Of a stretch of DNA of 64,000 bases, positions 7,709 to 55,336 are shown piece after piece. Each line of letters starts with the position of its first letter. Position 1 is the stretch's first letter. The notes below the pieces were generated by a model, which worked only from the letters and a program-made list of their open reading frames with translations, did no database searches and was not told the origin of the DNA. The translations under genes were made by a program, and so were the position numbers. Origin of the DNA: Cyanidiococcus yangmingshanensis (Eukaryota > Rhodophyta > Bangiophyceae > Cyanidiales > Cyanidiaceae); the NCBI GenBank assembly GCA_013995675.1, contig VWRR01000017.1:367433-431432 (forward strand). The letters run 5' to 3'.

Positions 7709-10172
7709 ATGCATCGTCGACGGACGCAGATGCTCGTTCTCGGTCTAGCGCACTCTCCAGGGATGCTTGGGCACCTGCGTCCGCTCATCGTGCAAGTCTG
7801 GGGAGCCAATACTAATGTCGGGAAAACATTGGTATGTGCTGCACTTGCACGTGCGCACACTCGTAAAAAAAGACCCCAGAAAGGCACGTTACTTTATTTG
7901 AAACCTCTCCAAACGGGGTTTCCCGACGATCACTGACGCTCGCTCTGTCTTTGTGCAAACTCAAGGCCACACAAGCCTCACTAATGATAACTTTAGTACA
8001 TTAGAGTACGAATCAGGAGACAAAACGCTTGTGTGTCGAACGTTATTCGCCTGGAGCCTTGCACGTTCACCCCAGGAGGCTGCCAGGGCAGCGAGCCCCA
8101 AAGTACACGACAGTCTGTCTGCGCTGTTGGCAGATGAATCGCCTCATGACCTTGAAAAAACGATACTCCACTATCTTTGGAATGTATTGAAAAAGCCTCG
8201 TTTTCGATTCGTCTTGATCGAGACAGCTGGTGGCGTCCTGTCACCGGCAAGCCCTTCTGGGACACTCCAGGCAGACCTGTATCGGCCGCTGCGCCTTCCT
8301 GGCATCCTCGTGGGAGACGCCCGACTTGGCGGTATATCGAGCACGCTCGCTGCCTATGAAGCGCTACGACAACGTGGCTACCAAGTTCCAGCGATTGTCT
8401 ATGGAGCTGGACCGGGTCTCGAGGAGGCCGAACGCAACGCAGCAGCGATCCGAGCCCATGTCGATCAAGACGAAACACCTGTGATCGAAGCCTGCGATCC
8501 CAGTGGTCGCTGCCACGACAAGGGTCAGCGAAGAGGCACTTGAAGTTGATGCAAATGCGACCGGATTGGGTCTAGAAAGAGCCGATCGAGTATGGGAGGC
8601 ACTGACCCAATGGCAAGAACAACGAGAAGAGCGCTGGACGCAGATGTTGCAAGAAAGTGATCACATGCTCTGGTGGCCATTCACACAACATCAGACGCGG
8701 CTTGCTGCGAATCGCAGAGGCGAGTTAGCACCGCCCGTACTCATCGACTCTGCTCATGGCGATGACTACATCGTTGTGCAATCCAGGACGCAGCGTTCAG
8801 AAGCGGAGTCAAGTGCGGACTCGGGTGCAGTGCTTGAACAAGAACGTTGGTTTGATGGATTGCGGCTCGTGGTGGACACAATCCCCCGGCCATGGCCATC
8901 CAGCAGTCAATCGGGCCATTGGATATGCACTAGGGCGGTACGGACACGTCATGTTTCCAGAATGCGTCCACGAGCCAGCATGGATACTGAGCAAACGTCT
9001 TTTAGAAAGCGTTGGCCAGGGATGGGCGTCACGTGTGTTCTTCTCCGACAATGGAAGTTCAGCGATGGAGATTGCCTTGAAAATGGCATTCCGCCTCGCT
9101 CAGAAGCGAGGTATTCTGGACCAGTCCCGAGCTTCCAGCGCATGTATTCTCGGAATCAACGGCAGCTACCATGGCGACACACTGGGTGCGATGGATTGCT
9201 CCTCGGAATCCACTTTTAACAGTGGACAGACTCCGTGGTATCGAGGTCGAGGGCTGTTCCTGGAGCCCCCGCGGTGCGCCATCCGACACGGTCGATGGGA
9301 TCCGTACGCCCCTCACGAGCAGAGCGCAGAAACTTTGCAACTTTATCGGGAGCGTTATCGGCTGCACGCCGCGGATGTGCAGCGAGCGCTCCAGCGAAAT
9401 CCATCAAAACCCATTGGGGCTTTGGTTTTGGAACCAGTTCTCCAGGGGGCAGGCGGGAATGTGCCTCATCGACCCCGCATACCAGCAGGCGCTTGTCGAT
9501 GCTTGTCGACAGCGCGGCATACCCATCGTTTTCGATGAGGTTTTTACTGGATTCTGGCGTCTCGGGGCACTCTCTGGCGCTCAGATTCTGCAACGAGAGC
9601 CGGATATAGCTGCCTATGGCAAGCTGTTGACTGGTGGTGCCCTCCCGATGGCCGCCACTTTATCTTCAGAGGAGGTTTTTCGGGCCTTTCTCGGACAGGG
9701 GCGATCCGATGCACTGCTCCACGGTCATTCGTACACCGCCTATCCGGCTGGTTGCGCGGCTGCAAACGCGGCACTCGCGCTTTATGAATCGCTTAGCGCC
9801 ACCAACACTCGCGTCTTCGATCACATTCTGATTGATTCGGTGCGTCAGCTCTCAACGAAACCAGGTATAGGCGGAGTCACTGCAATTGGCAGCGTCTTGG
9901 CCGTCCATCTAGCGCCTCTGTCAACCACGGAAATGGCGGCACCGAGCGCACTTGCCTCTCGCCTATCCCAAGTGATTCAGTTCGTTCGCCACCGACATCA
10001 GATCTATCTGCGACCACTGGGCACCACTGTCTACGCACTCACGGCACCCGCAAGGACGCCTCCGGAACGCGCAGCAAGCATTGTTCGCGCGCTCGCCGAC
10101 GCACTTGAACACGCAGCCGAAGATGCTACAGACTCGAGGTTCGTGTCGCCGTCACTCGCACCGATCGTTTGA
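7709..10172 (+). CDS. BIO3-BIO1: Bifunctional dethiobiotin synthetase / DAPA aminotransferase (BIO3-BIO1), split by four +1 frame offsets
   Basis: Fused biotin-synthesis enzyme as in plants and fungi. The BioD part has P-loop GANTNVGKT, LKPLQTGFP and ETAGGVLSP. The PLP-dependent BioA part has WWPFTQH, SWWTQSPGHGHP, GHVMFPE, FSDNGSSAMEIALKMAF, GSYHGDTLGAM, WYRGRGLFLEPP, FDEVFTGFWR, PLP lysine YGKLLTGG and HGHSYTAYPAG. It would be about 819 residues if joined, normal for the family. However, it runs through five successive frames, each +1 from the last. Breaks: at TGA 7934 (DDH then DAR); between 8497 and 8543 in the linker; at 8860 (FDG then CGSWW); and near 9458 (GAGG then MCLIDP). Conserved sequence continues directly across each break, so each costs exactly one base. 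The ATG at 7709 gives an Arg-rich, possibly mitochondrial, leader. Confidence 0.93.
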
Positions 10173-10821
10173 TCGTACACGGAGGAGCAACATTCCCAAA
10201 TTAGGATCTTCGACACTCGACTGACTTGAACGAGACAGAAACACCGAATGCGCGTCTCTTGTAGAACAGATAGTCCAGGAGCGTCTCATGGATCTCTACC
10301 GCTCCCTGTACCCATCCGAGTCATTGCCTCAAGAATCGATCTAAAAAGGGCGGGAAGATCGCTTCGCCAGCGTCGCGGTGCGTCGAAAATCAGTCGATGC
10401 ATGCATGATGATCGCTGCTGCTCTTAAATGGGATCAAGATGGAAATAAAGGACTTGCGTGTCCGAATCCGTTGTACGGTTTCCGTTGGCAGGGCATTCGA
10501 GCGGTTAGGCGATTCGACGCGTGCACAAGTCCCCTAACGCTCCGTGCATTTCGAGAACTGGTGACAAGCGCATTCGTGACCGGTGTATAAAGGCGACGAC
10601 CACGATAACAACAGGTCGATACAGACGTTGAGGTAACTCGAGAAAGAAAAGCACGAGATATTGGTTTTTCTTTGATATGTTTCTTTATACGAATGGAGTG
10701 GCGCGGATAAGCAGCTTGCGACACACATTTGTATCGAGGAAGGAATATTCCGAGGTCAAACCTCGGTACGATTGATCTCTGTTTTGCTCGGAAACGAGTA
10801 TCACGACATGGGACGCTTTAT
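10173..10821. other. Intergenic region upstream of nitrite reductase
   Basis: Contains the 3' region of BIO3-BIO1 and the promoter of nitrite reductase. No gene seen. Several MYB-core-like CNGTTR matches occur, but such short motifs are expected by chance. Confidence 0.4.
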
Positions 10822-12701
10822 ATGAGTAAGGAGCCACAAGAGTCACGGAAAAAGGCTGCTGGAGTTCCCGTAACGACGCTTCGCGACATTCAAGAGGACT
10901 GAGCGTCGAGGAACACTCGATCAGCTCAAACTGAATCCCTACGAAATGCCCAAGTACAATTCAGACTACCTACGTCATCCGTTGATGGAAGAGATGGCCA
11001 ATGAGGAAATTTTCGTGTCGGACGATTGTATCGGCCTGATCAAATTTCACGGCGGATACCAGCAGGATGATCGTGATCAGCGGGTTCGTGGTGCGCTGAA
11101 AAAGTACCAATTCATGTTGCGCCTGAAAATGCCCGCCGGTGAATGTCCAGCATCCCTCTATACGACGCTGGATGACATCAGCGAGTCGTATGGGAATCAG
11201 ACGCTTCGGCTAACAACGCGCTCATCCTTTCAGATACACGCGATTCACAAGTCTAACCTGAAGCGGGTTGTCCAAGCGATCATCCACGCCGGTGGCGGTC
11301 TCTACGGTGCCAGCGGTGATTGTTCGCGGAATGTGATTGCTCCAGCGGCACCTTTTGTTCAGGCGCCCTATGTTCAGGCGCGACATGTGGCCAAAGTGGT
11401 GGCCGAGCTCTTCGCGCTTCAGTCTCGAGCGTTCGCAGACCTCTGGCTCGATGGTGAGCGAGCTGCCACGATCGAATGCTGGAAGAAGGACCTGGATATG
11501 GATGAGGTACGAAAGCTGATGACGACCGATAACGGGCGAGGCCAAGTTGTCCCAGATGCAGTCGAGCCTCTCTACGGAAAAATGTATCTACCTCGCAAGT
11601 TCAAAGTTGGTGTCACGGTTCCAGGCGATAACTCGATCGATATCTACACGCATGATATTGGAATCATAGTCTTTTGTGACCCAGAGGGTCAACTAGAGGG
11701 TGCAAACCTTGTCGTCGGAGGCGGGATGGGCAGGACCCACAACAAGGAAGAGACCTTTGCTCGAGCCGCTGATCCGCTGGGTTACGTACCAGCAGCGGTC
11801 CTGTACGACGCTCTCAAGGCGATTCTGGCAGCGCAACGTGATCACGGAAATCGTGCTGTTCGTACCAATGCACGAATGAAGTACCTTGTGCATCGAATGG
11901 GCATCGACGGCTTCCGCGAATTGGTCCGTTCCTACATGGACGATGGTGGTAGCGCCCTGGCGCCGATGCGAGCCATGCCTCCCTGGTCATTCCAAGACTA
12001 CCTCGGCTGGCACGAGCAAGGTGATGGACGCTCGTTCCTCGGACTCTATGTTCAGAATGGTCGAATTCAGGGCAATTTGAAACAAGCGCTTCGATCCTTG
12101 GCGGATCGTTTTGCGTTCCCCATGGTCTGCACACCGCAGCAGAATGTGCTCATCACGAATGTGCCGAGCACGGAACAGAAAGAGGTCGTCTCGTTGCTCG
12201 AATCCCACGGGGTTGCGACGGAACCCTCTGTGTTGGACCCGCTCATGCGGGACGCCATGGCATGTCCGGCGCTGCCTCTCTGTCCTCCGGCGATCACCGA
12301 AGCGGAGCGAGTCATGCCGCGTTACGTCCAACGGGTCCGCAACTTGCTCTCCAAGGTTGGTATATCTACCCACGAGTCTTTTGTCATGCGGATGACCGGG
12401 TGTCCGAACGGGTGCACGCGTCCCTATATGGCGGAATTGGGCTTTGTGGGCTCCGGTCCAAACTGCACGTACCAAGTGTGGCTGGGCGGAAGTCCGACTC
12501 AGACCCGCCTCGCGTGGCCCTACCTCGACCGAGTGACGGATGCGGAGGTCGAACGGGTCTTGGAACCCGTATTTGTGTTCTGGAAGAGCCAGCGCTCATC
12601 CAGAAGAGTCGTTTGGTGACTTTTGTGATCGAGTGGGGAAATTCGCGATCGAAACGTACGCCCAACGCTATCTTGAAAGTATGCCTGCACCCGTCTCATA
12701 G
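10822..12701 (+). CDS. Sulfite-reductase-like ferredoxin nitrite reductase, with one certain and one possible +1 offset
   Basis: Siroheme/4Fe-4S enzyme of the sulfite reductase family; its place in the nitrate cluster points to nitrite as substrate. Motifs: NSDYLRHPL, LIKFHGGYQQDDRD, LRLTTRSSFQIH, GDCSRNV, YLPRKFKVG and cluster/siroheme ligands ACPALPLC (Cys-x5-Cys) with TGCPNGC (Cys-x3-Cys). The main frame (from 10946) stops at 12617. The canonical C-terminus ESFGDFCDRVG is in the +1 frame, reached by skipping one base at about 12596 (QR then HPEESFGDF), ending at TAG 12701. At the N-terminus, an ATG at 10822 reads 26 codons to TGA 10900; skipping its T continues to LNPYEMPKYNSDYLRHPL. That upstream offset is less certain, because translation could start at ATG 10946. 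Convergent with nitrate reductase. Confidence 0.93.
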
Positions 12702-13424
12702 AGGCGAGATCGCAGCAAGGAACGATTATGGTTTCTAACAGAGGGCATTCGTCTCTCGACAGCGTCGTCGAGCGAACGCTTCACGAGCTGAGCACCGGAA
12801 AACTTGGTGTAGTACACGATGCCACATCACACCAGAACGAGAACACGTTGGAAAGAATGGGATGTAGCGTTCAAAATCTGGCGCTTTACGATAAACTCCG
12901 TCAATTGAAACACCTCAGATCCAAGATCCATCGTCGATAAAGCCCGTGGCTGGGCGCCGAATCGTTACGCGGGTCCAGAACGAGCCCTCAACGTTCGAGT
13001 GCGCTTACAACCTCGCAGATACGCTCTTCTGACTGGTGATGTGCAAGCTGGTGCCAGAGAGAGACCGGATCGCCGTCTATCTAACTATACCACTTGCAGC
13101 CCCGGCTTAGACACAATCCCAGTATCGCTCATGCCGTTTCGTCCCTGCAGCTGAACGAACGAACGAACGAACGAAGGGAGAGTCTCTGTGAGTCGCCGCA
13201 GTCAGCTTTGCTTGCGGTGACGCTCGTGCCTCGTGCCTCCAAGCGAACCGCCAATATCTTCGAGAACGATCTCCAATCCTTTAACTCGTATCTGTATCGC
13301 AATTGAACGTAGCATGCGCTACAAATATTGCGGCTCGTCTGGAAGAGATGCTGCATCGAATACCCCAACGCAAGAAGCAAGCGAGCGAACAAGCCATCCT
13401 TGATTGAATCATTCGCTAACGACT
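12702..13424. other. Convergent spacer between nitrite reductase and nitrate reductase
   Basis: 3' regions of both genes. It contains the GAAC tetranucleotide repeat at 13153-13175 and otherwise nothing recognisable. The last nitrate reductase frame stays open to 13129 without recognisable domain content. Confidence 0.45.
13153..13175. repeat. GAAC tetranucleotide microsatellite
   Basis: Five uninterrupted GAAC units plus GAA, in the convergent 3' region of the nitrite and nitrate reductase genes. Confidence 0.95.
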
Positions 13425-16289
13425 TTAGAATGTAAAGTACTAATCTGGCTGTAAAGCCTAACGCCTGCAACGCGGGGATACAAGCCTCGTCTTGGAATCC
13501 GGGTGGCCCGCAGACGCCCACCATCACCTCTGACTTGGGCCAGGGAGACGAGCTCGTAATAGTTCGCGAGTCACGTGTCCGGCAACCAAGTCGGCTGATG
13601 CGCCCAGAGAGTCCCCAGATGCTTGGCTCAACACGTAACAAAAATGTGCAGTTGTGGGTTATTTTGTCTCCAGGACTCCAGTTCGTCGTAAAGGAGAATG
13701 TCGGCTTTGGTGCGATTCGCATAGATGAGATAGAGTGCGTCGATGTCTGGCTGCATCGGCTGACTCTTGTGCTCCTCGACTTGATTCAGAATCGCCTTCA
13801 TTACCTGAAACGCTGGTGTAATGCCCGTTCCCTGCACAGAGAAAAACGAATTGGCGGGCTTTGCCTGGCCTTCCATGCAGGAGATAGGATCCATTTCCCA
13901 GGTAGGTAAAGTGTCCCAGGGGACCCTTGACCTCCACCGAGTCACCGATGCAGAGTCCGTCCAGATACTGCGACATTTTGCCACCATCTGGAAACTTGGG
14001 ATGGGTTCCCGCTCGGTACACCTTGATGACCAATTCAAAGTAACCGAGGGTGTGTCCCAGACTCGTCGGTGTGTACGCCCGAATGACGATTTTGTCGTTC
14101 ATCTGGGCCCTGACGAGCAGATGGTTCCCAGTCGGCAAGCCCAGACTCTGCTCGGGATCAGGCAAGGCAAAGCGTAACCTCAACGTGTCTGCGGTGATGT
14201 ATTCCCTGCTGAGAAGAGAGAAGGAACACCAGCGTTTCGGGTCCAAGGCTCGCTCGCTACCCGCTATTTTCTCGTCACGAGCGGAAGCAATGAACGCTTT
14301 CAAGGGATTCGCATCCTTAGCCAGCTGCTGTCGCAACAGGTCCGTCGATGAGTCCGTATAGGCTAGATGCGGCGTATCAGCCAGCGCAGTCTCGGCGGGA
14401 ACGACTTTGCCGATGCAGAAATCCTCCAAAAGTTTCCAGGCCTTCTCAGAATGAATTGCTTCAAAGTCTTCGGTGCAATCCTGGCCAGCGTTCATCAGAA
14501 TGGCAGCCTTGCCTCCGGGGTGGTCGTTCAGATACGCCGTCACGTCATAGACGCGTCCCCGAACGATGATCCAGGTGTCGGCTTCGGTCTGATGCTGCTC
14601 TACCTGTGTCAGTGTGAATAGTCTCTGCTCGGTGTGTTGCATTTTCTCGGCTGCCTTTTTCCGCATCATTTGCTGATAGACATTCGATCCGTGGACCGTG
14701 CTACCTACAACACTGGGCGGCGGAGGCGACACCGCTGGATTCGCCACCAGCTTGGGTACCGCAGGCACACGTCCTGCCTCTTCAGCACCATTCTGTGTGA
14801 TCACCGTTACAGTCGCGGTAGGGGCCACGCTGGTGGCTGCTCCTTGCTGTTCGCTACTGACTGTTGATGGAGGCGGCATCCAGCCCCCTGCACTGGGTCC
14901 CGGCACCGTAGGATGCTCAAAGCGGAGCGAAATGCCGCCCGTGTTCGGGTCAGGCACTGGCGAAACGCGGACTCGGAACCATGCGTTATTGCCCATACCC
15001 ATAACATTCCAGGTCCATCGATGCGGTTGCGTATTGTTGCTGCAGTCCCAGGCTCTCACCGCAAACTCCGTGCAACAGAGCAGGTGTACCAGCGAGGCAT
15101 CATAGGTGAATCGGGCCCACGCCCATTGACGACCAGCCGCATTTGGCTCAAATGGATGCCTGGTCTCGCACAGATGCCAGTGCTGTCCATCGTCGAAGGT
15201 GATCTCCACTCGCGTGATGGGCCTGCCACCACCGCTGTAGGCGTAGCCTTCGATACGATATGATCGCTGGTCGGTCGCTTGATGCAGTGGGAAAAGCTCG
15301 TCAGTGTAGCGGTCGCACGACAGCTGCATTGATGTTCAGCTCATTGAAGAGGTACTCGGGTCGGTACCACCACTTTTCCGCATCGGCGCGCTCCTTGTCG
15401 ACATGGGGTGGCATAATTCGATTATCGAAAAAATGATAGTGATTTTGGGACTCGAACTCGCTTACTTCGATACGGGTGAGCCACTTGACCATGCGGCCGC
15501 CAATCCAGCCTGGGACCAGCAGCCGAACCGGATAGCCATGGTCTGGATGCAGCGGCTTCCCGTTCTGCGCGACGGCTAACAAGACATCTGCGTGCGGGTC
15601 CATGGCCATGGCCAGAGGGATGCTCGTGCCGTACGGTCCCTTGGCTGGATTATCAGCGCCAGTGAAGCAGACAAAGCGCGCTTTGGGTGTCTGCTGGACT
15701 TGGCAGTAACGCAGGAGATCCGCCAGGCGAATCCCTGTCCAGAGGGACGTCGAGGCACCACCAGCGCCCCAATGAAATCCAATACTCTGGCGGATCTGAT
15801 TCAACTCTTTGCGACGATTGCCAGGCACAGACGAGTGTCACCGGAATCGTGACGAGCGCTCCGATCTGCAGCAGCGATGAGACTGCTGAAACTCCCCGGA
15901 CAGCCGACCAGTCCGGAGACCTCCACGCGGTGCGAGGAGACAGCAAGTCGAGGGACTGCACCATGATTCCTGACATAGTGCAAGTCGGAGGTCGTCAGGT
16001 CCTGATTCAAGAGACACAGCGGTGGCTCTGCATTGAAGGGGTGTCGGCCGGTCAGACGAACCATTGCTTCATGACGCGGAACCCAATCATCCGGGGTCTT
16101 GCGATCCCGATTATCCACGGGGTATATTCCGTCGTCCAGCGCTTGTTCCTGTCGTTTCATGTCCTCCAGGAGCGTTGCTGGATCAAGGCGCTCCAGCGAC
16201 GTGATCGAGAGCTTGTTTCCCCAGAGCACGCTGAGCGTTGCCGTCTCATCGGCGATGGGCGAGTCCCGTCCATGATTCGCCGACGGCAT
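13425..16289 (-). CDS. NR: Assimilatory nitrate reductase (NADH/NADPH), split by at least five +1 frame offsets
   Basis: Complete domain order of eukaryotic nitrate reductase. The Mo-cofactor domain has TPDDWVPRHEAMVRLTGRHPFN, LHYVRNHGAVP, molybdenum-ligand Cys in TLVCA/GNRRKE and GGRMVKWL. The dimer domain has GYAYSGGGRP and NTQPHRWTWNVMGM. A long Pro/Val-rich hinge (about 90 residues) precedes cytochrome b5 (heme HPGG), then FAD (RAYTP) and NAD(P) domains (CAG/TGITPAF, GVCGPPG). Six successive minus-strand frames encode it, each +1: near 15880; 15823 (VCA then GNRR); TGA 15303 (PLH then DE); 13829 (CAG then TGITP); TGA 13630 (VTC then EPS). A sixth +1 near 13434 would give a typical ...GFTARLVLTF end at 13425; without it the frame runs to 13129. 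Joined length is about 950 residues, normal. Start ATG 16289. Confidence 0.94.
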
Positions 16290-17288
16290 ATCTGTGTAGG
16301 AACAGTGTCCTCAAACGATCAGGTTGAAGGCAGGACAAGAACCAAGGACCCTGGCCCAGTCCGTTGGCCACAGGCACTATCCTGTTTGCCGGCTGCTTTC
16401 CGCGAGTCACCAATGCACCGAGTCAGAGTCAGAATGGGACGATCGTTGCACGGGAAACGTGTCAACGGAAACGTGCACCAAGCTGGACGTAGACCTCAAA
16501 CACCGTTGCAGTCCAATATTTCGAGCTCGTTTCCAACACTTTTGTACAGCAAATCGGAGACAGACTCGTCGCTTGTTCACGACCATAAACGAACACCAAC
16601 CGAGCTACACGATGCACGCAACGCCACGATCGTGTACAACTCCTTTCAGAGACCAGCACCTGTTACAACAGCCTCTACTCAGGTATTCACCAGTGCACGA
16701 ACCGAACAAGCCAATAGCTCTTAAGCGCAACCCAAATGCGCGCTTCCACAAAAGGTTGGGTAAGAAACAGCCAGGAAAATAATACCCAGAGCCGTGTATA
16801 TCAATACATTCGAAGTGCGTCTCGATGCATTGATATGACCTCGTGACCACCTGTGACCAAGCGCCTTTCATCATCCTCTACACTTGATGTCGTTCATCAG
16901 CGCACTTTGGCTTTCGAGGCTTCTTCCCCGAGGCCACGACGAGCCAACACGCACCCATTTCCGTTGCGTCGAAATTGGGGCGATCGAATCGAATGCGTGC
17001 ACGGCGGCGAATCCGATCCGATCCGTTGAACGTTCGGCACGTGTCGATTGGGTGAGGGCGCGCGCATCAGCCACCTACTAGGACGAATGATCTGTTCATG
17101 GCTCATGAATTCATTCTCTGTCTAGTGAATTGGCAGACATTGGAGGGCATCCTAGGGGACGTTTTACAAGGACCCTATTCCAAAGACGATTTGGCTGCTA
17201 CTTGTACTGGATTAGCGCGAACGAGCTTTTTCTTGATTCGATTCTATTACTTCTAACGTTTTGTGCACTTGCTTGTTTCATGTGAAAG
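16290..17288. promoter_or_regulatory. Divergent promoter region of nitrate reductase and NRT2
   Basis: About 1 kb separates the two start codons. It holds several CNGTTR motifs (CCGTTG near 16361, 16502, 16970 and 17023) and the inverted repeat at 16660-16671. In Cyanidioschyzon the MYB factor CmMYB1 activates nitrogen-assimilation genes through CNGTTR-type sites (established knowledge). That these copies work is inference. Confidence 0.4.
16660..16671. promoter_or_regulatory. Inverted repeat with two MYB-core motifs
   Basis: CTGTTACAACAG is a perfect inverted repeat of CTGTT with a 2-bp spacer. It presents CNGTTR on both strands (CTGTTA and CTGTTG). It sits about 370 bp upstream of the nitrate reductase ATG and 620 bp upstream of NRT2, so it could serve both. 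Confidence 0.35.
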
Positions 17289-19004
17289 ATGGCCGAAGAG
17301 GCGGCTACTGGAATACCTATCCCGGCGGATACAGATAAAGAGGCCGAGCTTCGTGAGGATACCCTGGACTCTTCACTGGGACCGTCTCGTCCAAGCAGCA
17401 AGGAATGGAAGGACCTCGAGTCTGAGCCGCCGGCTGCACCAACGCCTTGCTTTCGGTTGCCTGTGGATGCGCTGCATCGTGCGAAACGCTTAGGAGCCAT
17501 GGCGTTTCGATCGTCCTCATATGCGTGCATTTTTCTTCGCTTGGTCGTCCTTCTTCATCGCTTTCTTCGGATGGTTTGCCTGTTCCAGCACTTCTGCCAA
17601 GTATCTCGATGGATCAGGCTCTGAATTTGACCAAGTCCAATAAAGGCGAACTCGAATGCGATTGCGCTCTCCGGGACCGTGTTCATGCGCATGGTGACCG
17701 GGGCGCTGGTCGATCGTTTCGGTCCGCGGCGTATCCAAGCGCTGTTGTTGACCGTCTTTTCGATTCCTGTGTATCTGCTGGGGACAGTGTTTAACTTTGC
17801 ATCTTTCGCTGCTGCGCGGTTTTTTATTGGAGGTCTCGGGGCGACGTTCGTCGTGACAGAGTACTGGACCGCCATTATGTTCTCGCGCAGCCTGATCGGT
17901 ACCGCGAACGCAGTCGCTGCTGGCTGGGGCAATGCGGGCGGCGGAGCCACCAATGCGCTCATGCCGCAGTTCTACGACCTCATGAAGGTTTTCGGTCTGG
18001 ACGAGGAGAAAGCGTGGCGAGTTGTGATGGTGATTCCCGGCACGATGTGTGTCACCTGGGCAGCGTTACTCTTCTTCTTCTCTGACGACTGTCCGGACGG
18101 AGACTACAAACGAATGTATCGGCTGGGTACCATGAGGCAAATATCGGCGCTTGAAGCGTTCGCCCGTGCCGCACGCAATCCTTGTACATATGTGTTGTTC
18201 TGTCTCTATGCCTCGAGTTTTGGGGTGGAGCTCACCATGGATAATGTCCTCGCGACGTACTTCAACACCGTGTTCAATCTGGATCAATCCATTGCTGGAG
18301 TCGCCGCTGGCCTCTTCGGACTCATGAACTTGTTCGCTCGTGCGGTCGGTGGCATCGGATCGGACTTGATTGCGCGCAAGTACAGCATGCGCGGGCGGGT
18401 GCTCTGGCTCTTTGCCAACCTCGTTTTGGAGGGAGTCTTCTGTCTGGTGTTTTCTCGCATGACGACGATCGATGCAGCTATTCCGATGCTCATCTTGTTC
18501 TCCTTGTTCACCCAGGCATCGTGCGGGGCTGTCTTTGCAATTGTGCCCTTTGTCGATCCGATTGCGACCGGTTCTGTTGGTGGCATCGTTGGCGCTGGTG
18601 GCAATACCGGTGGTGTGACACTCAGCCTCGTGTTCAGCCACATGAGTGATCCCGATGCGGTTCGGCTCATTTCGTTCGTCGTCCTGGGCGTCTCCCTATT
18701 GACGTTTCTGTTGCTCTGGCCATTTCCGGTGAAGGTGACGCTCGTTGGCATTTCAGATTCGGAAAGACGGGCCGTGGAACGTATGAGTCTCCAGCAGGAT
18801 GACCTGGGTATCTCAAGCCAAGCGCTGGTTGGAAAGGACGGCGCGCTGCGAGACGTCGCACTCAGCACAAATGAGAGCGATGTTCCGCGAATAGGCCAAC
18901 GCGACTCTATAGAGCCGCAGGATGCGATGCTAGAAACGCCCTTTGCGTTTCCGCTGAGTCCCAATGGCCACGAAGCAGGTGATGCAACCCCTAAAACGCG
19001 TTGA
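17289..19004 (+). CDS. NRT2: NRT2-type high-affinity nitrate transporter, with three +1 frame offsets at the N-terminal end
   Basis: Major facilitator of the nitrate/nitrite porter family, about 570 residues if joined, 12 predicted membrane segments, plasma membrane. Clear motifs: HMRAFFFAW, LNLTKS, FMRMVTGALVDRFGPRR (MFS loop motif), two nitrate-signature-like stretches (GGLGATFVVTEYW with WGNAGGGATN; GIVGAGGNTGGV) and DNVLATYF. The large frame starts only inside segment 2. Reading back, segment 1 lies in two other frames and the N-terminal tail in a fourth, each +1 from the preceding: at about 17517 (SS then HMRAF), 17581 (GWFA then VPALLPS) and 17642 (LTKSN then KANSNAIALSG). Without these shifts the transporter would lack segment 1 or start internally at 17679. 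Start ATG 17289 (MAEEAATG). Divergent from nitrate reductase. Confidence 0.94.
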
Positions 19005-23603: not shown

Positions 23604-24336
23604 GTGCACGAGCGTGCATCGTGACCTTGCCAAGGGGGTATCGAATCCGTATCCCCGGCCAGGCGCTGAACTCGACTCGGAATGGAACCAAGGAAAGTCA
23701 AAAAACAAGTGACCAGACTCGGATCGATGCGTCAAGCGTTTCTGCTCGGGTCATCAACGAGCTCCACGAATGGGATGAAGACCTCTCCCGTGCGCTCGTT
23801 GCCTGTCGCGGTTCTCGCTCGAGGCCCCTTTTTGAACGCGCTGCCGTGCGGGAACAGGTACTACGCCCGGGTGCTGCGCTGTAGCCTACATCGACGTCCT
23901 TGACACCACCAATCCGATGATAGATGGATCGATAGAAACCTGGATCGTCTTTTGCGTGGAATGCTTGCGGTGACATGGTCGGGTCCAGCGTCTCGCGATC
24001 GATGGTTCGCCTCCGAGCCGGCTGGTCGCATACCGCATGCCAAGTGGTGCGGGTCGATCGCTGCAACAAGCGTCCAAGGTCATCTACCTTGGAAGAGACC
24101 ATGTGCGCTCTGCTTGATTCCATTCATAAAATCGATCGACTTGCTGTTTACGAACTGGAACGCATCTGCTTGGCAAAGGTCTCGCTTGGATCGAGATGCT
24201 GCCCGGTGTTAGATCGAACATGTACGAATTAGATCATAAATGGATTTTTATGGACAGCGGCGCGCAGGCGTCCGCCCAGCCGCGGGATTTCAAATACTAG
24301 GCCTGAACTTGGAGCGACCAACGCTGCAGACTTGCC
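23604..24336. other. Intergenic region, no gene recognised
   Basis: Between the golgin and SKA1 genes. Short frames only, shadows on both strands; presumably the 3' region of the golgin gene and the SKA1 promoter. Confidence 0.4.
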
Positions 24337-25714
24337 ATGGACGAAGCGATTGAGGCTTTGCACCTTGCCTGGGAGCGACTAGAGAGAGATGTTGCACTGT
24401 TGGAGTACCGGGTTGCTCAGGAGCTGGTACAGCGGGGAGACGAACCAGGGACAAGCGTTGTCGATCCGCTACAGTTGATTGAGCGACTGCGCGGGTTACG
24501 ACGGGCACTTCCTGCTCTGCAAGCAGAGTGGGATCGAACCCTGGCACTCAAGCACGAGCTTCTTTTCGTGACCCAAACCATTCTTATGGCGAATCAGGAT
24601 GGAGATTCAGCAGGTCGTGGCAGAGATACAACAGGAGGGTCTTATTGCCGAGGCGGGGTCGCCAGTTGCCCAAGCGTCCGCGACGTTGTTTCGCCACTTT
24701 CAAGCCTGTTTTCGACAGTGGCAACAAGCTTTATCCGAGATGAACGAGCAACGTGGTGAGTTGTCGACGTTTTCGACGAAACGATTCGATGTATCGACAG
24801 CAGAGGCACAAGACAACGAGAACCTGAACGATCCCGAGGCGAGCGCCGCGGCTGCTCCCGTGTGGGCCGGTCAGTTGGCCGCGGACGCTGCCACCGAGAC
24901 GCTCCATCTGGCCATGGTTCGTGCTGGTGTACCGCTACATACACCAGCATCATCACCGTTTGCCACCATGGATGGTGCTTTCGACTTTGAGAATCGCCAT
25001 TCGTTGCCTGATGAGATCCCAGATAGCGACTTGGCCGTGACGAGTGTCGTGAACCCCTTGAGGGATATGAACCAAACATCAGCGGATCATGAGCACCGTG
25101 GCTCGTCATCGCCGTGGTCGTCGAATGGATTCGTGCCGATAGCAAAGGCCGCTTTTCAGCGCTTGCCGCTGATATTACGCCGTCGGGTTCCATCCCTAGA
25201 TACATTGAACCAGTCCTATGCGAAGCTTTTCCAAACGATAGCTGAGCGAGAACGCGCGGTGCTCAGCGATGCCGAAGCAATGAATCTTCTAGGCGAAGGA
25301 TGTCGTGACCAGTTAGAGGTGCTCCGCGGTCTTGCCGTTCTTCGACGGACACGTGATGGCTGGATGTTGGCTGCTGCGACGAGCGGAACACGTGTACCGA
25401 CTCGATCGCATGCCGGCGGGTCGCACTCGAGGGAAGCCAGCCACGTGAACCGAGAGGCTCGGCCGAAATCGTCACCAATGCCACTCGGCGTCTCCGAAAG
25501 TGTCCGTTCGTCGAGCACGCGAAAGCACTTTCCAGCGCCAACGCCGGATCCAAGTATGGGCAGCTCTGGTTCACGCGTCATCAGAACAGGGACCACGCCT
25601 CCGAAACAAGGATCTCAGCAACCAGATGCATACCAACCTGCTAGGCGTACGGATCGTGTTTCCTCGGTTCGTCGTATATCGCGCGATCCACTGGACAATG
25701 TGACAATCATGTAG
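24337..25714 (+). CDS. SKA1: SKA1-like kinetochore-microtubule protein, with one +1 frame offset
   Basis: Probable subunit of the SKA complex, which couples kinetochores to spindle microtubules. The N-terminal part is an alpha-helical coiled coil (MDEAIEALHLAWERLERD..., LQLIERLRGLRRALPAL). After a polar linker comes a winged-helix-like segment, FVPIAKAAFQRLPLILRRRVPSLDTLNQSYAKL. It fits the SKA1 microtubule-binding domain pattern (F..iPky..GRl....lN.ai..i). A basic, Ser-rich C-terminal tail follows. The first frame (from ATG 24337) and second frame overlap at 24599-24759. The coiled coil passes from one to the other by one skipped base between about 24595 and 24607, for example GAT-T-CAG at 24607. 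Joined length is about 458 residues. The assignment is from remembered family features and is moderate. Confidence 0.6.
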
Positions 25715-26173: not shown

Positions 26174-26789
26174 CTAGGCGGGCTTGGTTCCGGAATGCCT
26201 CCTTCGACGTGGCAGCTTTCGGGCTACAGCCGATCGTTGCGCTGGTGGAATCTGCTCCCAGTCCGGTTGCTCGGTGTCGAACCAGATCGGCTCAAGGACT
26301 CGGTTGGTGCGCGGCTCGACACAATCGTCGTCGGCGCAGGTAACGCAGCCCGTGGCCCGAGACGGCATCAGGAACGCTCGCGTATTCAGTTCTGAACGAG
26401 GCCCGGGACGGCGTTTACGAAGCGGCACTCGACAAACAGCGTGACCACCTTGGGCCGTACATCGAGAGACGGCCCAGAGTGAGCAGAGCGCTCGGTAGCC
26501 TCGACGACGCCACTTGGCAATCAGGTCCCCGTCAGCGAATCCGATAGCGCACGAAGTATGCAAACGTCGCACGACTTAACTTGTGCTCCACAAACCTTTT
26601 GTGATAGATCGCTCGATTCTGGTCATGATGAACTTGATGCAGTGGCCACAAAAGCCCCGTCGAAGGGGTCCCGTTCCGTTCGAGGGCGTCACTGCGCACT
26701 TGTTCGAAATAGTCCAGCTCATCAGCGAGTGTCTTCCACGACTCGTCTGGTGGCGGAAAAGAGGTCACGACTGCTCGCCAGGAGAGCAT
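26174..26789 (-). CDS. BUD31: BUD31/G10 splicing factor, with one +1 frame offset
   Basis: BUD31 is a small, highly conserved Zn-binding protein of the spliceosomal NTC-related complex. Motifs in order: FPPPDESW near the N-terminus, LADELDYFEQ, LWPLHQVHHDQNRAIY (family LWPIFRIHHQxxRYIY), KRFVEHKLSR, then IGFADGDLIAKWRRRGYRALC (family GYADKNLIAKWKKxGYExLC), CRVP and a Cys-rich CVTCADDDC. The first half is in one minus-strand frame ending at TGA 26532. The second half is in the next frame, reached by skipping T 26546 (VR then IGFAD), +1. Similarity is continuous across it. Start ATG 26789 (MLSWRAVVTS). The conserved part ends near 26321, while the frame stays open to 26174, giving a tail of about 49 residues beyond the family's usual end. 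That tail may be real or hide another offset. Confidence 0.88.
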
Positions 26790-27257
26790 TGTGATTATGA
26801 ACCGTTTCCAGTCCCGTCTGTTGAGTGCTTTGGCAAACCTCGCGAACGTCGTGGTGCCGGGCACAGCACCTCGACACCGCGAGTACGCAGCTCAACGAAG
26901 CGGCTCGTCGACGGTCACGCCCAAAGCAGGTTCTATCCTCGAAACGCAGTCCGCAAGTCGAAACGCCAGACACAAGCGTTCACTTGCTCGCTCGTAAGCG
27001 GCAAGGCACAACAGTGTCTTGGAACAAGTAGCGCATTCAACGGAGCGGGTCGCAACGAGAGGCGTCGAACCAGCAGCGAGATACTGGGACTCAGACGACG
27101 CAACTCGGCCAACATCTTGACGAGTGGTTGTTGTTGACTTGGCCTTTTAATCATAATCGAATGGGTCATCAAGCAAGATTCTAGTTTTTGAGTCGCCATG
27201 ATGATCTGTTGACGAACTGGGTCTTGGCGAAGAGTACGTTGGCACTAGTCTGATCAG
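26790..27257. other. Divergent promoter region of BUD31 and the RRN7-like gene
   Basis: Short region between divergent starts. Minus-strand frames here (for example at 26933-27199) are open but carry no recognised domain. Confidence 0.4.
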
Positions 27258-46267: not shown

Positions 46268-48019
46268 CTAGGTATCATCTGGCGACGACCATGGCGCATA
46301 TCGATTGCTGTGTCATCAAATCGTAAGTTGTTGTGTCCAGTGATGTATTCAGTATAGATGACGAGTGTGACTGCCCAATGGTGCGTGGACCGACACAATG
46401 ATAGGCCTGAGGACCGTAACTAACCATTCGCGTTTTTATGCGTTCAGCAGCGAGTAGGAACTAGACCGGAGAGGCGAACCCGTCGCCAGCGGGAAGTAGG
46501 AAGACGTTTGGCCTCGCCGCGATTGAAAACCAATCCTTGGCGCTCTTAATGCCTGTATACGAGAACGCGACCTGTTGGCGTGGTGTACGACGCCAAGCGG
46601 GTGACCTGGTCGACGAATGGATCTGTTTGGTTGCTCGGTGCAGCGCTCAGCATTTGCGTGAGCGATAGGTCTCGCTTGGTGCCAGACCAGTCGACGGGTA
46701 CGCGTTGAGACCCCAACGGCCTAGTTTTGATTCAATCAGGTCCAGACTCGTTCAACAATTTTTTCCATATCCGTTTGGAAGGACCAAGCCAGTTCTCCGC
46801 TTCTAGAACCGCGCCTGTGCCGTTACATTCTCTTGCATGAAATGCTGCTCTTTTCCGAAGTGGATCGTTTTGCTTTTTTCAGCTATGAAACAATTCAGGA
46901 ACCGATAATCGGCTTGCTTGGACTCTGCGCTTGGTGATGCTGTTGACGTCTCTGAAAAGACAGTTGTTGCTATCATGGGGAATGTGAACACGGAAGGCAG
47001 CGCCATGGCTCGGACATCTTTCGGCAGAGTGCGGGGCATGGGCAACGTATTCGCATCTCCTGTGAATGCAAAATCTCCTATGAAACCGCCGACACAAGGG
47101 CGTTGATGACATCTAACGAGAGGCATTTGTCTGAGACCGACCCATGGAGGCGAGTGTCTCGGATCGGACGCTGTGGAATCTCCCAAGCTACCATTAATCG
47201 TGTCTGAGCTCTTGTTCGGCGACGTTTATCCTGGACAAGTCGGGGCCCAATGTCATATAGGTGACGGGGTTGATATCTGGCCGGAATGCGTGAAAGAGTT
47301 AGGGACGAGTCTACCTCGAGCTAGCCGGTGACTGGACTGTGCTGAACGCAACCCGCTTCCCAAGACTCGTTTGTGAATAGCATTCGCGAAAATGGACATG
47401 AAACGCGAAATACAAGAGACCAGGGCATTGCGGCGAGGCTCGGATAGAGTCAAACTGCGTCATCCACTGCGACGGTTTCGAATCAACAGTGTAGCCGGAT
47501 CGAGGAGCCGTTGGTTGGACGAGAGATTCAGACCAGATACCTGTTGCGGCTGAACTGGGTCCGATTGCTGCATGTTACCCATTCTGATTATCTCCGCGGA
47601 ACAAAAGGCGCACTTGGCACTGCCAACTGGACGGCAGCTCAATGTGTTTGCGTGATGAGAACAGGTCGCCCCAGATCAGGTAAGTGGATCACGCTTCGTG
47701 CAAGAGATCGACGATGAAGCGCCGAACCAGAATCTTTGATCGCTCCGCAGTGATGAAAGCAACTGCGCCTTTCACAGTTTGACAGAGTCAATCTCTGACA
47801 ATGTCGACGGTAATTTGCGTCTGAGCGTGCGAACAAGCTTTTTTACAGCTCTGCAGCAAATATTCGAAGACGAAGCGGATACTAACCGGTGGTACCAACT
47901 AACAGGGAAGCTATATACGAGGTTATGGGCCTGGCCCGAATTCGGAAACGCCATGCCTTCCAGGGTCGCGCCTCGAGCATCGCTATGCCAGCGTGTGGAG
48001 ATACCTCTTTGGTCGGAAC
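46268..48019. other. Convergent intergenic region without a recognised gene
   Basis: About 1.75 kb between the 3' ends of the NAA25-like gene and CCT6. Scattered frames of 60-130 codons on both strands show no family features. Confidence 0.45.
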
Positions 48020-49636: not shown

Positions 49637-50110
49637 AGTCGGGAACGAAACGAAACGATGTTGTGACTTGCAACAACGGTGTACGGAGCGTGTAGGAGGG
49701 GTATGGGCGACTCGGGGGCGACGCCACGCACGCTTGACGGCTCGGGGACCCAGCGCGTGACACCTGTCACAGCGCATGGACGGCCGCTGCCGCGCCCGAA
49801 CGCCATTGCGGACGCGACCTGGACAGCGTCGGATCCGCACCCAGTATGATGCCTGGACGCGGCGAGGGCGACGAACGCGCTCCAGTTGGCCGCGATGGCC
49901 GGTGCGCTTCCCGTTCGGCAGGCTGGCGCGATCGATCGCTTGGGCACGCACGCATTCCAACAACGTTGGCTCAAGCCTCTCATTCGTGTTTGCGGCTGTA
50001 GAGGCGACGTTTATATTGTCTGAAACGCTTTGGGTGAAAGGTCTGGTCACGTAAGCGCGTGGACGTGTTTTGAGAACTGTACGGAAGCAAGTTCTGAACG
50101 TGAAGCCTTC
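49637..50110. promoter_or_regulatory. Bidirectional promoter region of CCT6 and OSCP
   Basis: About 470 bp of GC-rich sequence separate the divergent start codons, so both promoters must lie here. No specific element is identified. Confidence 0.5.
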
Positions 50111-50816
50111 ATGTCTGGGCAGCGACTGGCACAACTTGCTCGGCGATTCCTGGGGCGCGTCGCCGGGGGTTCTTTGCCGGCTCGCCAGCGATGTCTCGGG
50201 ACGGTTGCGGGCCCTGCGACGTCCGAACGTGAGCAGTCAGTGGAGGTGGCGCAAAACTTGACCGGAATAGCTGGTCGCTACGCTGGATCGCTTTTGCGGG
50301 TTGCAACCGAGGCAAACAAGCTGAGTGAGGTTCGTCGAGACGTGAGCTGCACTGGAGCAGCTGCTCCGCGAGAACCCCCGCGTGGAGAGCTTTTTGGGGG
50401 ATCCTACGCGCTCGCAGCTATCCAAGTCGAAGGCACTGAAACGGTTGATGGACGCTGCAGGCGTAACGACGTCGTACGTGCGAAACCTGTTACAAGTGCT
50501 TGCGGACAACCGTCGTCTGAACTATGCCACGCAGGTCTTGGGTACGTTTCAGTCCGTGATCTCTGCGCAGCAGGGCTCCACACAAGCGATCGTGACTAGC
50601 GCGACGCCGCTGAGCGAGTGGCAGCTGGCGCTTCTGCGGCAGCGACTCCAGCACCGCTTCTTTCCGGATATGTCTGATGTCCGAATCGAGATCGTCACGC
50701 AGCTGGACAAGGACCTCATTGGGGGTTTCACCGTTCAGTTTGAAGACAAGTTTCTTGACCTGAGTTTGCGCACGGAGGTTAGGCGTATCCGCGATGAGCT
50801 TACCCAGCAAGTTTAA
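50111..50816 (+). CDS. ATPO: Mitochondrial ATP synthase OSCP (delta-type) subunit, with one +1 frame offset
   Basis: Stator-stalk subunit linking F1 to the peripheral stalk of mitochondrial ATP synthase. Arg-rich N-terminus (MSGQRLAQLARRFLGR) typical of a mitochondrial presequence, then GIAGRYAGSLLRVATEANKLSEVRRDV in the first frame. ALEQLLRENPRVESFLGDP, YVRNLLQVLADNRRL, VTSATPL and KDLIGGFTVQFEDKFLDLSL lie in the second, matching the OSCP family through to the C-terminus. The two frames are joined by skipping one base at 50345-50348, either GTG-A-GCT or AGC-T-GCA. This is a +1 offset in the middle of a conserved helix. Joined length about 234 residues, normal for OSCP. ATG 50111. Confidence 0.92.
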
Positions 50817-52647
50817 AGTTTCATGTTGCCTGAGTGGTGGAGTACAAACCTGGACGAGGCCCAAAGGATTTCGGATTCTTACCCGCGATGCCGCGCTTGA
50901 TCTTCCTCGGGCGAGAGGAATCCAGACTAGGATCGATGAGGATTTTGGAGTTCAACCTGGATACTCTTTGGGCGGACTCGCGCTCGAATTATGCGACCCG
51001 AGGTCTTGTCTGACAAGAGAGTGAGAAATTCGAGAATGGGTGCTGGGATCGTATCGAGCCTTGTCAACATATTGTCTAAGTTTCCGCGAATGAACAAGCT
51101 CCTATGTCGTAGACCAGCCATCTAGTGTCAGAGAATGTTTGCAATGAAGACAGTTTCTTTGTAAGCCGTTAAAATTGATGAAGTACCGAGACCTTCACAG
51201 TGTTGTGTGGTTTCAGAGCTGGCCTTGCATCTGACCCTAGGTTCGATCGCCGGCAGCGGCCTCGATCAGCGAAGTGCTTCAGTGTAAAAGCTCGGAGAGT
51301 GACATCCATGACGGGAATCAGAGACGCAGGGACCCTTACCGTCCAGAATGAATGGCACGAACATGTTCATCGATTCTCAATGGGAGATGATGCGTCAATC
51401 AGATACAATGGGTTCGCAATAGTGCGCATTGCTGGTTACGATGCCGTTTCCCGGCTTTGGTGGCGAGTATGGTGAGGTTATCGAACTCTGCCAGTAGCCG
51501 CATACCAAACCATACGTGTGACGGGCCGATTTCATGCGCCCTGGGCATACTCATACCTTACATTCTCGGCTTCGAAGAGAGATAGCGTGCCATAAAGCCA
51601 GTGGAGCGTAGCATTCCAAGCTCCCATGCTGGCCATACAATCCACTATACTGTGCTGCTTGAACATTTACAGAACCTTGTGCAATTGTCCGGCTCTGGTT
51701 CCGGCTGGGGCTGCAAGCATGAGACCAAAATTTCCACATTGAGAGTGCGGTCAATACTTGTCCCGACACAATTCCATGAACAATAAGCGAAATCATCTTG
51801 TTTGAACCATGAGCAGTGCGCACAAAGTACGAATGACGGAATCGACTCGGGCACAATATCTTGTAGGTCAAGAATTTTATGGTGTCTACCGCCTGCTCTG
51901 AAGTATCTCGACGGATATTTGGTGAGCGCTCCACTGCCAGGTTCTTGAATGGGTTTATGTCCACCAGGGGCGACGGTGTCCTACGCCATAGAGCGTTTCT
52001 TAGTCCATGGGAAAGACACATACCAGACTTTCAGTAGTAGCCGACCACTGAAGCAAAGCCACACGCGCATTCGATTCGCTGTGTTAGTGTATCTGGGATA
52101 GTCCTGATAAGCTGTGGAAATTTTCTGGTTTTATTTTCGTACGAGAGTCCTTTCAAAGCGTCTGGATCGTGTCTCCGGTAACCAAGGTTCAGGAACGCCC
52201 TGAAAATGGAGTGAGGAAACGAACGAAAACCAAACAACGCATACGCCGTTCAACTTGAACATCCATGCTCTAGTCCGAGTCGCGCTCCACCTGTACCTAA
52301 TCGACACCCGAAGCACGAACCAAATTACGCAATGTAAAGTTGGTCGCCCCCAAACCCTAAATGAGCAGAGATTCTGCTTCAGAAAAAGCCCCCGAGACGT
52401 CTTTAGCGAGCGCATAATATCCCGAAAACGTGTACCTTCTGAGCGTTGCACGCCTTTCTCGGTTGCTGATCTCAGAGCGTACCATCAAGAGCGATCATGT
52501 CCGTGTGCTTCCTTCGTATGGCTCGCGTGCTCTGACCTTGTTCGCATTCGCCGTACACGGAGCTCGAGACTACAGCACTCCTGAGAATGTTCTGTATCGG
52601 GCTTGAATAGGCAGATCCGGGTCCACCGAGTGCATCAAGATCATCGT
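50817..52647. other. Long convergent intergenic region without a recognised gene
   Basis: About 1.8 kb between OSCP and PEX4, AT-richer than the genes. Frames up to 156 codons on the minus strand (51551-52021) carry no recognisable motif. Confidence 0.45.
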
Positions 52648-53103
52648 CTATTCTCTACCCATCGCGTGCAGCTGCGTATACATTCGGGCCATGGACCAGA
52701 AACCTCGTTTGTCACCGCAGCGCAGGAGGTTTCCCGCATCACAGTTCAGCGGAGAGGAGGGTTCAGGTTCGGTCAGCAGCAGCTGGATGGCCCGCAGACA
52801 CGACGCGAGGCTCCAAGCAGGTGACCACGCTGACTGCAGAATATCCAAGCAGATTTCCCCGGTGCGGAAGTTAACGTTCGGGTGAAAGACTGGCATCCGA
52901 AAACGCACGCTCGGTGGCACCAACGGGTACGACGGTGACAAGACGAGTTCGAGTGCGAGTCGTCCTCCCTCGTAGGGACTGGCCTTTGGTCCTTGGAGGT
53001 ATCCCCGCAGGCGCAGTAGGTTACCATCCTCTGGTTCGAGCGAGAATATCTCGGGGTCCTCTCGAAGCTCCCTTAGTTCTGTGAGGAAGCCGTTTCTGTA
53101 AAA
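52648..53103 (-). CDS. PEX4: PEX4-type ubiquitin-conjugating enzyme E2 (3' exon)
   Basis: UBC-fold protein: GFLTELRELREDPEIFSLEPED, GPKASPYEGGRLALELVL, YPLVPPSVRF, FHPNVNF, TGEICLDIL (active-site Cys) SAWSPAWSL and PEPSSPLNCDAGNLLRCGD. The last matches PEX4, the peroxisomal E2 that monoubiquitinates the import receptor PEX5, better than other E2s. The open frame begins after TGA 53104-53106 and contains no suitable ATG before the E2 core. It is preceded by CTAATGATTTTACAG, which looks like a branch point and 3' splice site (AG at 53097-53096). The gene therefore probably has an intron and an upstream first exon. C-terminus MARMYTQLHAMGRE is normal for the family. Confidence 0.85.
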   Translation of the reverse strand, partial: FYRNGFLTELRELREDPEIFSLEPEDGNLLRLRGYLQGPKASPYEGGRLALELVLSPSYPLVPPSVRFRMPVFHPNVNFRTGEICLDILQSAWSPAWSLASCLRAIQLLLTEPEPSSPLNCDAGNLLRCGDKRGFWSMARMYTQLHAMGRE

Positions 53104-53239
53104 TCATTAGCAAAGTCGCTTATGTAGCCTCGGAGAGAGAGAGGTGCACTGAGTGGCGGTGCCGCGCACTCGACTACCTAGAAAAACGTCGCTGTGCGAG
53201 CCAGTGCTTAGACAGGCAGCACACTGCGACACCTACTAC
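53096..53239 (-). other. Putative spliceosomal intron of PEX4
   Basis: Candidate donor CAG/GTAGTAGG at 53239 and acceptor TTTTACAG/A ending at 53096, with CTAAT 14 bases before the AG, giving 144 nt. The candidate first exon begins at an ATG about 80 bases upstream of the donor. It meets exon 2 in frame only if the first exon itself contains a +1 offset. Low confidence; a cDNA is needed to place it. Confidence 0.3.
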
Positions 53240-54269
53240 CTGAAAAAGGTTTCCTTAGACGTAGAAACTTCTGCTTGTACGCCGTTGACCCAACGCGAGC
53301 AGGTTCGAAACGGAAACGCGAGTTGCCGGAATCGTCATAGCTCTTTATTGTAAGAGCGTGCGGCCAAGCGATGGTGGTGGTGGTGGTGGCGGCGGCCACT
53401 CCAGCTCCACGTGGAAGAGGCCTTCATCGACGACAAGACAGAAGCCTAGTGCTTCTCGCGTTGAGGCATTTTCGCAAGCATCGATCAACTACAAGGGCCG
53501 CATACCCGATACATTAGAAGAGGATTCGTTTCTGGAAACAAAATCGTTTATCTTCAAAAAGAATCACAGAGTCGCATGATGGTCCTTGAGTCCGCTCGGC
53601 TGTTGCTATAGAATTCTCGGTTGTCGCTTGAACGCTGCTGTACCCAGGGCGATATCTTTTCAGGATGTGTTGATCATGCAGTTCCTCCTTCTGATGAAGG
53701 TTTCAGGCAGAGGTCGCAGCCCAGGCATTTTTATATTGTATCCAGCTGGGGCGCTTTTCGGTACGATCTAAAAGACGCTCAGCGCGTATTTTTATCGGGA
53801 GCGTCTTTCATAGAGGAGAGCTGCATTCCTGGCGTCTCGCCAGTCACAGGCTCGAGCATGTCGAGTGTGCGGCTTGCGTTATCATACGTAAGTGAGAGCC
53901 ATCCTTTGAGCCACTGCAACGAGCGAGGTTTCAACGTGTTCACCGCGCAGACGACAACCTTGAGAAATCGAATCAGTGCTCACGGCTGGCTCCCTATGGA
54001 TCGGGATCCATAGGTCCTGAAAAGTCTGACCAGCTCTGATAGGCACCAGCAGACGATAGGAGTGCAGTCAGCGCTGACTGGCCATGCATTTTTTGATTTT
54101 GCTCTTGGGATGGCGTCTACCCAAATTCCAAATGGAGCGGATCATCAGGTCTGTGAATTTACCCGAGGTAGCGAATCTTGTGTGATAGACAACTGGTAGC
54201 ATCCCTGCTCCAACTTTCGTTATGGCGGTCGTTGAGGAGAACTGAGGCAATGGTTGCAAAAAAACTATA
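53240..54269. other. Intergenic region, no gene recognised
   Basis: Includes the PEX4 upstream region with a GGT repeat near 53370. A 130-codon plus-strand frame ending at 54013 has no ATG at its beginning and no recognised motif. Confidence 0.35.
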
Positions 54270-55336
54270 TCAGATAACGCGATGGCAGAGGCTCGCTCTC
54301 ATGATATTCGCCCATATGGCAGCGTACCCGGACGAGATATGAACTCTTTTGAAAAGACCCAAGGCTTCATCGTCTTCTCGGGTGGCGCTTCTCGCGCTCA
54401 TGTCCTCCAGAAAATACGGAGGCCAGAGCGTTCGTGTGTTTTCTATCGTATATATTAGACCAAGATCCGCTAGGGGACTCTGTTGAATAAACTTGTCAAG
54501 ATCCAAACAGTCTGGGTTCTGAGCATACTTGAACGGCTCGATGACTCGTCGAATTCCTTTCGCGTTCGCCAGGTAGGCGCCGGTTCCCCAGCTGACCAGC
54601 GGTTTGTACGGAACTGCGGTGCGACGACTACAATCGGAGAAAAGCCGCTCCAATCCGAGTTCCCCAGAGGTTCCTACATCATCATATGCCGCTACCTTCA
54701 GTTCGAGCATCATCGAATCGATGGGGTTTTGGAGGTATTCAGAACCAGTCCAGAAATTGTGTCTTCCCAGTATGGCATGAGGTCCAGAGACGTGTCGTCT
54801 TCGATAACCAGCACAGACGAACAATTATCGCGGAGCGCCGTGTGAAGCGCAAGCAGGTGCGAGAAACTTACCATGAGCGACGCGCTTAAGTTATTCACCA
54901 GCGCGCTAGAAGAGGCATGGAGTCTGGTCTTGGTTCCAGGAATCGTTTCGATCCCGTCTGGTCGACTCGTTGCGGCCTGGATAACCTCGGCTAGCTGTGA
55001 TGGTCGTAGCGCACGAACTCGTTTGAGGTTGCCAGGGCCAGGTTTTGGCTGGCCCAGGAGAACTGCAAGTCCATCACTGCGTGGCTTGTCTTCGAGCCCC
55101 ACGACGAAGACACAGATTCCCGGCTGGTCAAGTGACAACAGCCGGTAAAGATGTCGTTGAAGGGAGGGACCCTTTGGCCACAGGTGCAGCGGGGTCGCAA
55201 GCCCTGTTAGGGACGCCTCCCGCACCGGAGCCAAGGTTTGGAGCGACCTATAGTACCCGACTGTGAGAACTATGCCGACTGTTACGATAAGAACGTTCCA
55301 GAAAAGAATCAACTTCCCCCGTTTCCGATTTCTCAT
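54270..55336 (-). CDS. GT25-like type II membrane glycosyltransferase, frame-broken once
   Basis: ATG 55336 opens a short basic tail and one membrane anchor (LILFWNVLIVTVGIVLTVGYY, residues about 9-29), the type II topology of Golgi glycosyltransferases. The lumenal part has SFSHLLALHTALRDNCSSVLVIEDDTSLD, the conserved SH...LxxED[DE] core of family GT25. After the break come LELKVAAYDD and a WGTGAYLANAKGIRR stretch, typical of the GT25 C-terminal half. The two frames overlap near 54720-54745 and differ by -1, which equals two +1 steps. For example, T could be skipped after ACC and again after CGA, leaving PKPHR between. The acceptor and sugar are unknown. Confidence 0.6.

Follow-up and report, generated by a model that had tools for sequence, protein, structure and literature searches.

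Does the red alga Cyanidiococcus yangmingshanensis read past surplus bases inside its conserved genes, or are these bases errors in its genome sequence? The question is raised by a 64-kb stretch of assembly GCA_013995675.1 (contig VWRR01000017.1, positions 367,433 to 431,432; hereafter the window, with positions counted from its first base), in which a first-pass annotation reported seven genes recognisable along their full length only if the reading frame moves by +1 at 16 places. The window comprises the last 64 kb of its contig (C9), which is one of 20 in a genome of 12,072,675 bases. We conclude that the breaks are very probably single-base consensus errors, mostly surplus bases, which are spread through this assembly, and that the genes are presumably ordinary continuous frames.

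Three genes, BIO3-BIO1, nitrate reductase, and the nitrate transporter NRT2, were analyzed by protein-to-DNA alignment tolerant of frame steps. Another assembly of the same species contains an 801-residue BIO3-BIO1 protein (CCYA_CCYA18G4602; P0241) encoded on a contig of 434,072 bases, and the window sequence matched it at 781 of 801 residues with four one-base +1 steps, no codon gap, and nothing else needed. P0241 itself runs unbroken through all four sites. The identical four steps were obtained with P0243 (61% identity), and P0242 (70%), which begins at 8211, required the last three, all that it covers. Since an unbroken protein for a badly affected gene is thus present in another assembly of the species, the breaks are almost certainly assembly errors. 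That assembly, of strain 8.1.23 F7, is described as corrected with short reads, with a gene set of 4,832 proteins, 36 introns, and a BUSCO completeness of 92.4% (PMC9812998). According to the same source, earlier drafts of the group had been reported to contain gene models that were inaccurate or incomplete.

Full-length relatives were also found for nitrate reductase (P0001, 951 residues, 69% identical) and NRT2 (P0121, 568 residues, 79%). The NRT2 alignment to P0121 (457 of 560 residues identical) required three +1 steps, all in a stretch of about 150 bases; with P0123, the first two breaks were again +1 and the third was modelled as −2, an equal frame change. A search of NRT2 against the Protein Data Bank (PDB) gave no match at E 0.001. 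Nitrate reductase was aligned to P0001 (660 of 943 aligned residues identical) and P0003 (505 of 889), and five +1 breaks were placed. Altogether, homologue alignment placed 12 +1 breaks (BIO3-BIO1 four, nitrate reductase five, NRT2 three), each of which is solved by the removal of one base. The first-pass annotation had described the offsets as always going in the same direction, which does not hold: one break in nitrate reductase is a clear −1 required by both references, and at another P0001 requires +2 and P0003 requires −1.

The remaining four +1 breaks were located by other means. The halves of BUD31 lie in two frames, which match residues 11–84 and 84–159 of the PDB chain 8xi2_N, and the Pfam BUD31 domain was found on the first frame. 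Reading frames alone define the breaks in nitrite reductase, a SKA-like gene, and OSCP. In the SKA-like gene, the Pfam SKA2 match (E 8.5e-07, 29.2 bits) is slightly below the cut-off of 30.1. Pfam OSCP covers positions 28–172 in one frame (E 1.9e-30); the N-terminus was assigned by eye to another frame, and this piece taken alone gave no match in a Pfam search. For nitrite reductase, one or two breaks had been proposed. The tail does lie in the +1 frame, as judged by eye, but the gene is less broken than had been claimed, because residues 3–551 of its 557-residue open reading frame align with a solved sulfite reductase (5h8v, E 2.2e-166), with a Pfam NIR_SIR match. The count of 16 +1 breaks in seven loci was therefore correct, with the evidence graded as 12 by alignment, one by PDB matches, and three by reading frames only. 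Homology and reading frames together give the window 16 +1 breaks, a single −1, and one break that is −1 or +2 (Table 1).

Table 1. Frame breaks in the window, with coordinates and the evidence that locates them.
Feature	Position	Strand	Breaks	Evidence
BIO3-BIO1 (dethiobiotin synthetase / diaminopelargonate aminotransferase)	7763..10169	+	four +1: near 7934, 8493, 8860, 9455	alignment to P0241, P0243, P0242
Nitrite reductase, sulfite-reductase type	10874..12698	+	core one open frame; C-terminal tail in +1 frame, break near 12560–12600	reading frames, joined by eye
Nitrate reductase	13428..16289	-	+1 near 15884, 15823, 15303, 13832, 13440; −1 near 13534–13540; −1 or +2 near 13632–13644	alignment to P0001, P0003
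NRT2 nitrate transporter	17289..18992	+	three +1: near 17493, 17581, 17642	alignment to P0121, P0123
SKA-like gene	24307..25711	+	one +1 near 24602	frame-model call and reading frames
BUD31	26177..26891	-	one +1 between 26535 and 26575	two frames, two PDB matches
OSCP, ATP synthase subunit	50024..50813	+	one +1 near 50346	reading frames
Coding run of no assigned family	54300..55254	-	−1 call of the model at 54736; alternatively, insertions near both 54685 and 54717	frame model

The extent of the breaks across the genome was estimated with a frame-tracking codon-position model, trained on long open frames outside the window and given extra states for one surplus or one missing base. With the first settings, an exit from and re-entry into coding sequence undercut a shift, which made shifts uncallable, and the costs were reset. 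The model was applied to 314 kb in total: the window and 250 kb beyond it, made up of 10 kb of every one of the 20 contigs and a further 50 kb of C9 upstream of the window. Calls were counted in predicted coding runs of at least 300 bases (188.3 kb). In control runs, the model made no calls in 122 kb of intact open reading frames after codon shuffling. Of the changes implanted as tests, it recovered 59 of 66 insertions and 53 of 66 deletions, with none mistyped.

We obtained 35 +1 and 9 −1 calls, sampled across all 20 contigs, corresponding to one detected break per approximately 4.3 kb of predicted coding sequence; the addition of two more 10-kb stretches brought the calls to 37 and 9. The sample bore out an excess of +1 beyond chance (binomial P 1e-4). 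Among the nine −1 calls, at least two represent close pairs of +1 breaks, in nitrate reductase (15881/15820) and in a pyrophosphatase gene on contig C1 (sampled stretch L002). Under the codon model, eight of the nine are explained equally well or better by two insertions if the second step is not charged for; the ninth was unscored. Because some −1 calls are paired +1 breaks and two-insertion paths fit eight of them, the insertion excess is real. Breaks in two genes outside the window are supported by PDB alignments: the two-step join in the pyrophosphatase aligns gap-free to a solved pyrophosphatase, and the gene for coatomer beta, located on C9 upstream of the window, gives a gap-free alignment across its break join.

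Call density was alike inside the window (8 calls in 34.0 kb) and in the remaining sample (36 calls in 154.3 kb), and the window is thus not special. Across 117 coding runs the calls fit a uniform rate, with no departure seen (P 0.43), by a model that undercounts dense clusters. The undercounting is evident in the window itself, with 8 calls against at least 18 breaks found by homology and frames. The model was silent in 18 of the 22 window runs, three of which (nitrite reductase, NRT2, and OSCP) are broken at or beyond the run ends. Extrapolation of the 44 breaks in the 314-kb sample to 12.07 Mb gives about 1,700 breaks in the genome, a number that could hardly stay hidden in the F7 gene set.

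Locally clustered insertion errors in the assembly had been listed among the possible causes. Insertion errors are supported, and the property is genome-wide, not purely local. The narrower explanation, in which the errors are limited to one poor patch at 7.7–19 kb and the rest of the genome is sound, draws on the distribution of breaks located by homology and frames: 15 fall within this stretch of approximately 11 kb, as compared with three in the remainder of the window, where one further call comes from the model only. Since model calls are equally dense in the other sampled sequence, and the pyrophosphatase and coatomer beta breaks lie outside the patch, we regard this explanation as having almost no chance of being right.

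Ribosomal frameshifting of the +1 type, quadruplet decoding, and removal of one base from the messenger RNA had also been proposed. All three need the surplus base to be present in the DNA of the organism, and they conflict with the continuity of the same-species P0241, with the continuous nitrate reductase and NRT2 relatives, with the existence of a −1 break, and with the break-site sequences, in which no shared slip signal was found. In Euplotes, +1 frameshifting is described as occurring at AAA-UAR, with peptide support (PMC5011710). The window resembles the Euplotes case as presented there in that many genes are readable throughout only with a +1 shift, at times with several shifts per gene. 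In contrast to the Euplotes shifts, a zero-frame stop (TGA) was found at only 2 of the 12 placed sites and AAA-TAR at none. Furthermore, of 13 heptamers checked from break sites, 12 are present in frame and unshifted, 1 to 7 times each, in the 36,314 codons of break-free runs. Two CAC-TGA sites were checked as hexamers only; these contain a stop and therefore cannot occur in frame in break-free runs. No relevant report of frameshifting in Cyanidiophyceae was found, going by titles and the openings of abstracts.

Widespread frameshifting or quadruplet decoding, in which a genomic surplus base is skipped by the ribosome as in Euplotes, would account for the predominance of +1 calls and for breaks that fall within conserved genes of either strand. 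A solution at a codon boundary exists at all 12 placed sites, but 74% is expected for random bases and 95% for duplicated bases, and we rejected a codon-boundary bias as a signal. With the continuous P0241 and the unshifted heptamers against it, such decoding is very unlikely. Removal of real surplus bases from the messenger RNA would explain the breaks themselves and nothing further, and given the BIO3-BIO1 continuity and the lack of a shared signal, it is barely conceivable.

Three other sequence-level explanations were tried and set aside. A C-T-G slip motif was spotted post hoc; in-frame NNC-TGN occurs 441 times in the break-free codons, and the motif was not enriched at independent breaks. 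Outside the window, it was found for 10 of 19 breaks with intervals of up to 150 bases (44% expected) and 19 of 30 with intervals of up to 300 bases (55% expected). Tiny introns do not apply, as the surplus is a single base at all 12 placed sites. Overlapping or adjacent genes were also rejected, since one conserved domain spans the join gap-free in the pyrophosphatase and in coatomer beta, and BIO3-BIO1 follows the same-species protein.

The breaks might alternatively be real one-base insertions in this strain, representing recent gene decay. The comparison with P0241 crosses strains, with 20 of 801 residues differing, and the breaks crowd in the nitrate-assimilation neighbourhood, both of which could accommodate decay. 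Conversely, the break density is equal elsewhere in the genome, and the pyrophosphatase and coatomer beta genes are affected as well. In addition to one-base changes, a pseudogene should carry stops and larger indels. We counted no in-frame stops in the three aligned genes, a weak test since the alignment itself penalises stops, and BIO3-BIO1 has no codon gap relative to P0241. Gene decay is accordingly a very doubtful explanation.

According to PMC12007338, errors of long-read assemblies consist mainly of short indels and are largely associated with homopolymers. The breaks resemble the errors described in this source in that one-base indels, in both directions, split conserved genes and are absent from the other assembly for the one comparable gene (four of four BIO3-BIO1 sites, compared as protein and in another strain). 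If the breaks are such errors, the sequenced strain would lack the surplus bases in its DNA, this assembly would have been corrected less well than the polished F7 assembly, and an insertion-biased long-read chemistry or consensus step may have produced the errors.

Several observations weigh against consensus errors as the explanation. The surplus-base excess of about 4:1 lacks a detailed account, and it differs from the errors described in PMC12007338, as does the homopolymer context: a lengthened run is compatible with 8 of the 12 placed sites (random bases would give 50%, duplicated bases 100%), and at least four of the 12 surplus bases cannot be homopolymer extensions. At 5 of the 12 placed breaks (7934, 8493, 15303, 15823, and 17581), the surplus base can be taken as a T at a codon boundary, with C before and G after it, as compared with 2% expected of random insertions in a simulation. 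The crowding of breaks at 7.7–19 kb suggests that sequence quality is uneven. The reference proteins (P0001, P0003, P0121, P0123, P0241, P0242, and P0243) are database entries compared as protein, and the P0241 comparison spans two strains of one species. Nitrate reductase and NRT2 of the F7 assembly were absent from the best 120 proteins listed, although its BIO3-BIO1 was among them. Structural RNA genes, for which decoding is irrelevant, offered no comparison, as no transfer RNA was found in the window, and Rfam gave no match there or in sampled stretches L002 to L026.

Some features of the window were recorded alongside the breaks. BIO3-BIO1, the sulfite-reductase-type nitrite reductase, nitrate reductase, and NRT2 adjoin one another at 7763–18992, and this cluster looks conserved, as relatives in Cyanidium caldarium have neighbouring gene numbers (CDCA18G4600, 4602, and 4603). 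In the gene named nitrite reductase (10946–12619), the plant-type ferredoxin sulfite reductase 5h8v is far ahead of the solved nitrite reductases, the best of which gave E 7.5e-32. Fragments of two broken genes are listed as separate proteins from a contig of 431,432 bases, which is also the length of C9: P0002 (nitrate reductase, 556 residues; 13662–15335, minus strand) and P0122 (NRT2, 437 residues; 17631–19001, plus strand). A ubiquitin-conjugating enzyme (PF00179, E 1.2e-34) occupies one open frame at 52651–53103 on the minus strand. For the coding run of no assigned family, the two open-frame pieces tried gave no Pfam match. Although the window extends to the contig end, a search of it for the telomere repeat described in this species (one pattern, at most 2 mismatches) gave no match.

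Were the surplus bases real, the alga would depart from triplet reading to an extreme degree. A breakdown of strict triplet reading peculiar to this strain, with real surplus bases skipped at well over a thousand sites and no fixed signal, is exceedingly improbable. As biology, the pattern is most likely without importance, and its practical meaning concerns data quality: gene losses, pseudogenes, and split genes deduced from this assembly, such as a missing nitrate reductase, need to be checked against another assembly.

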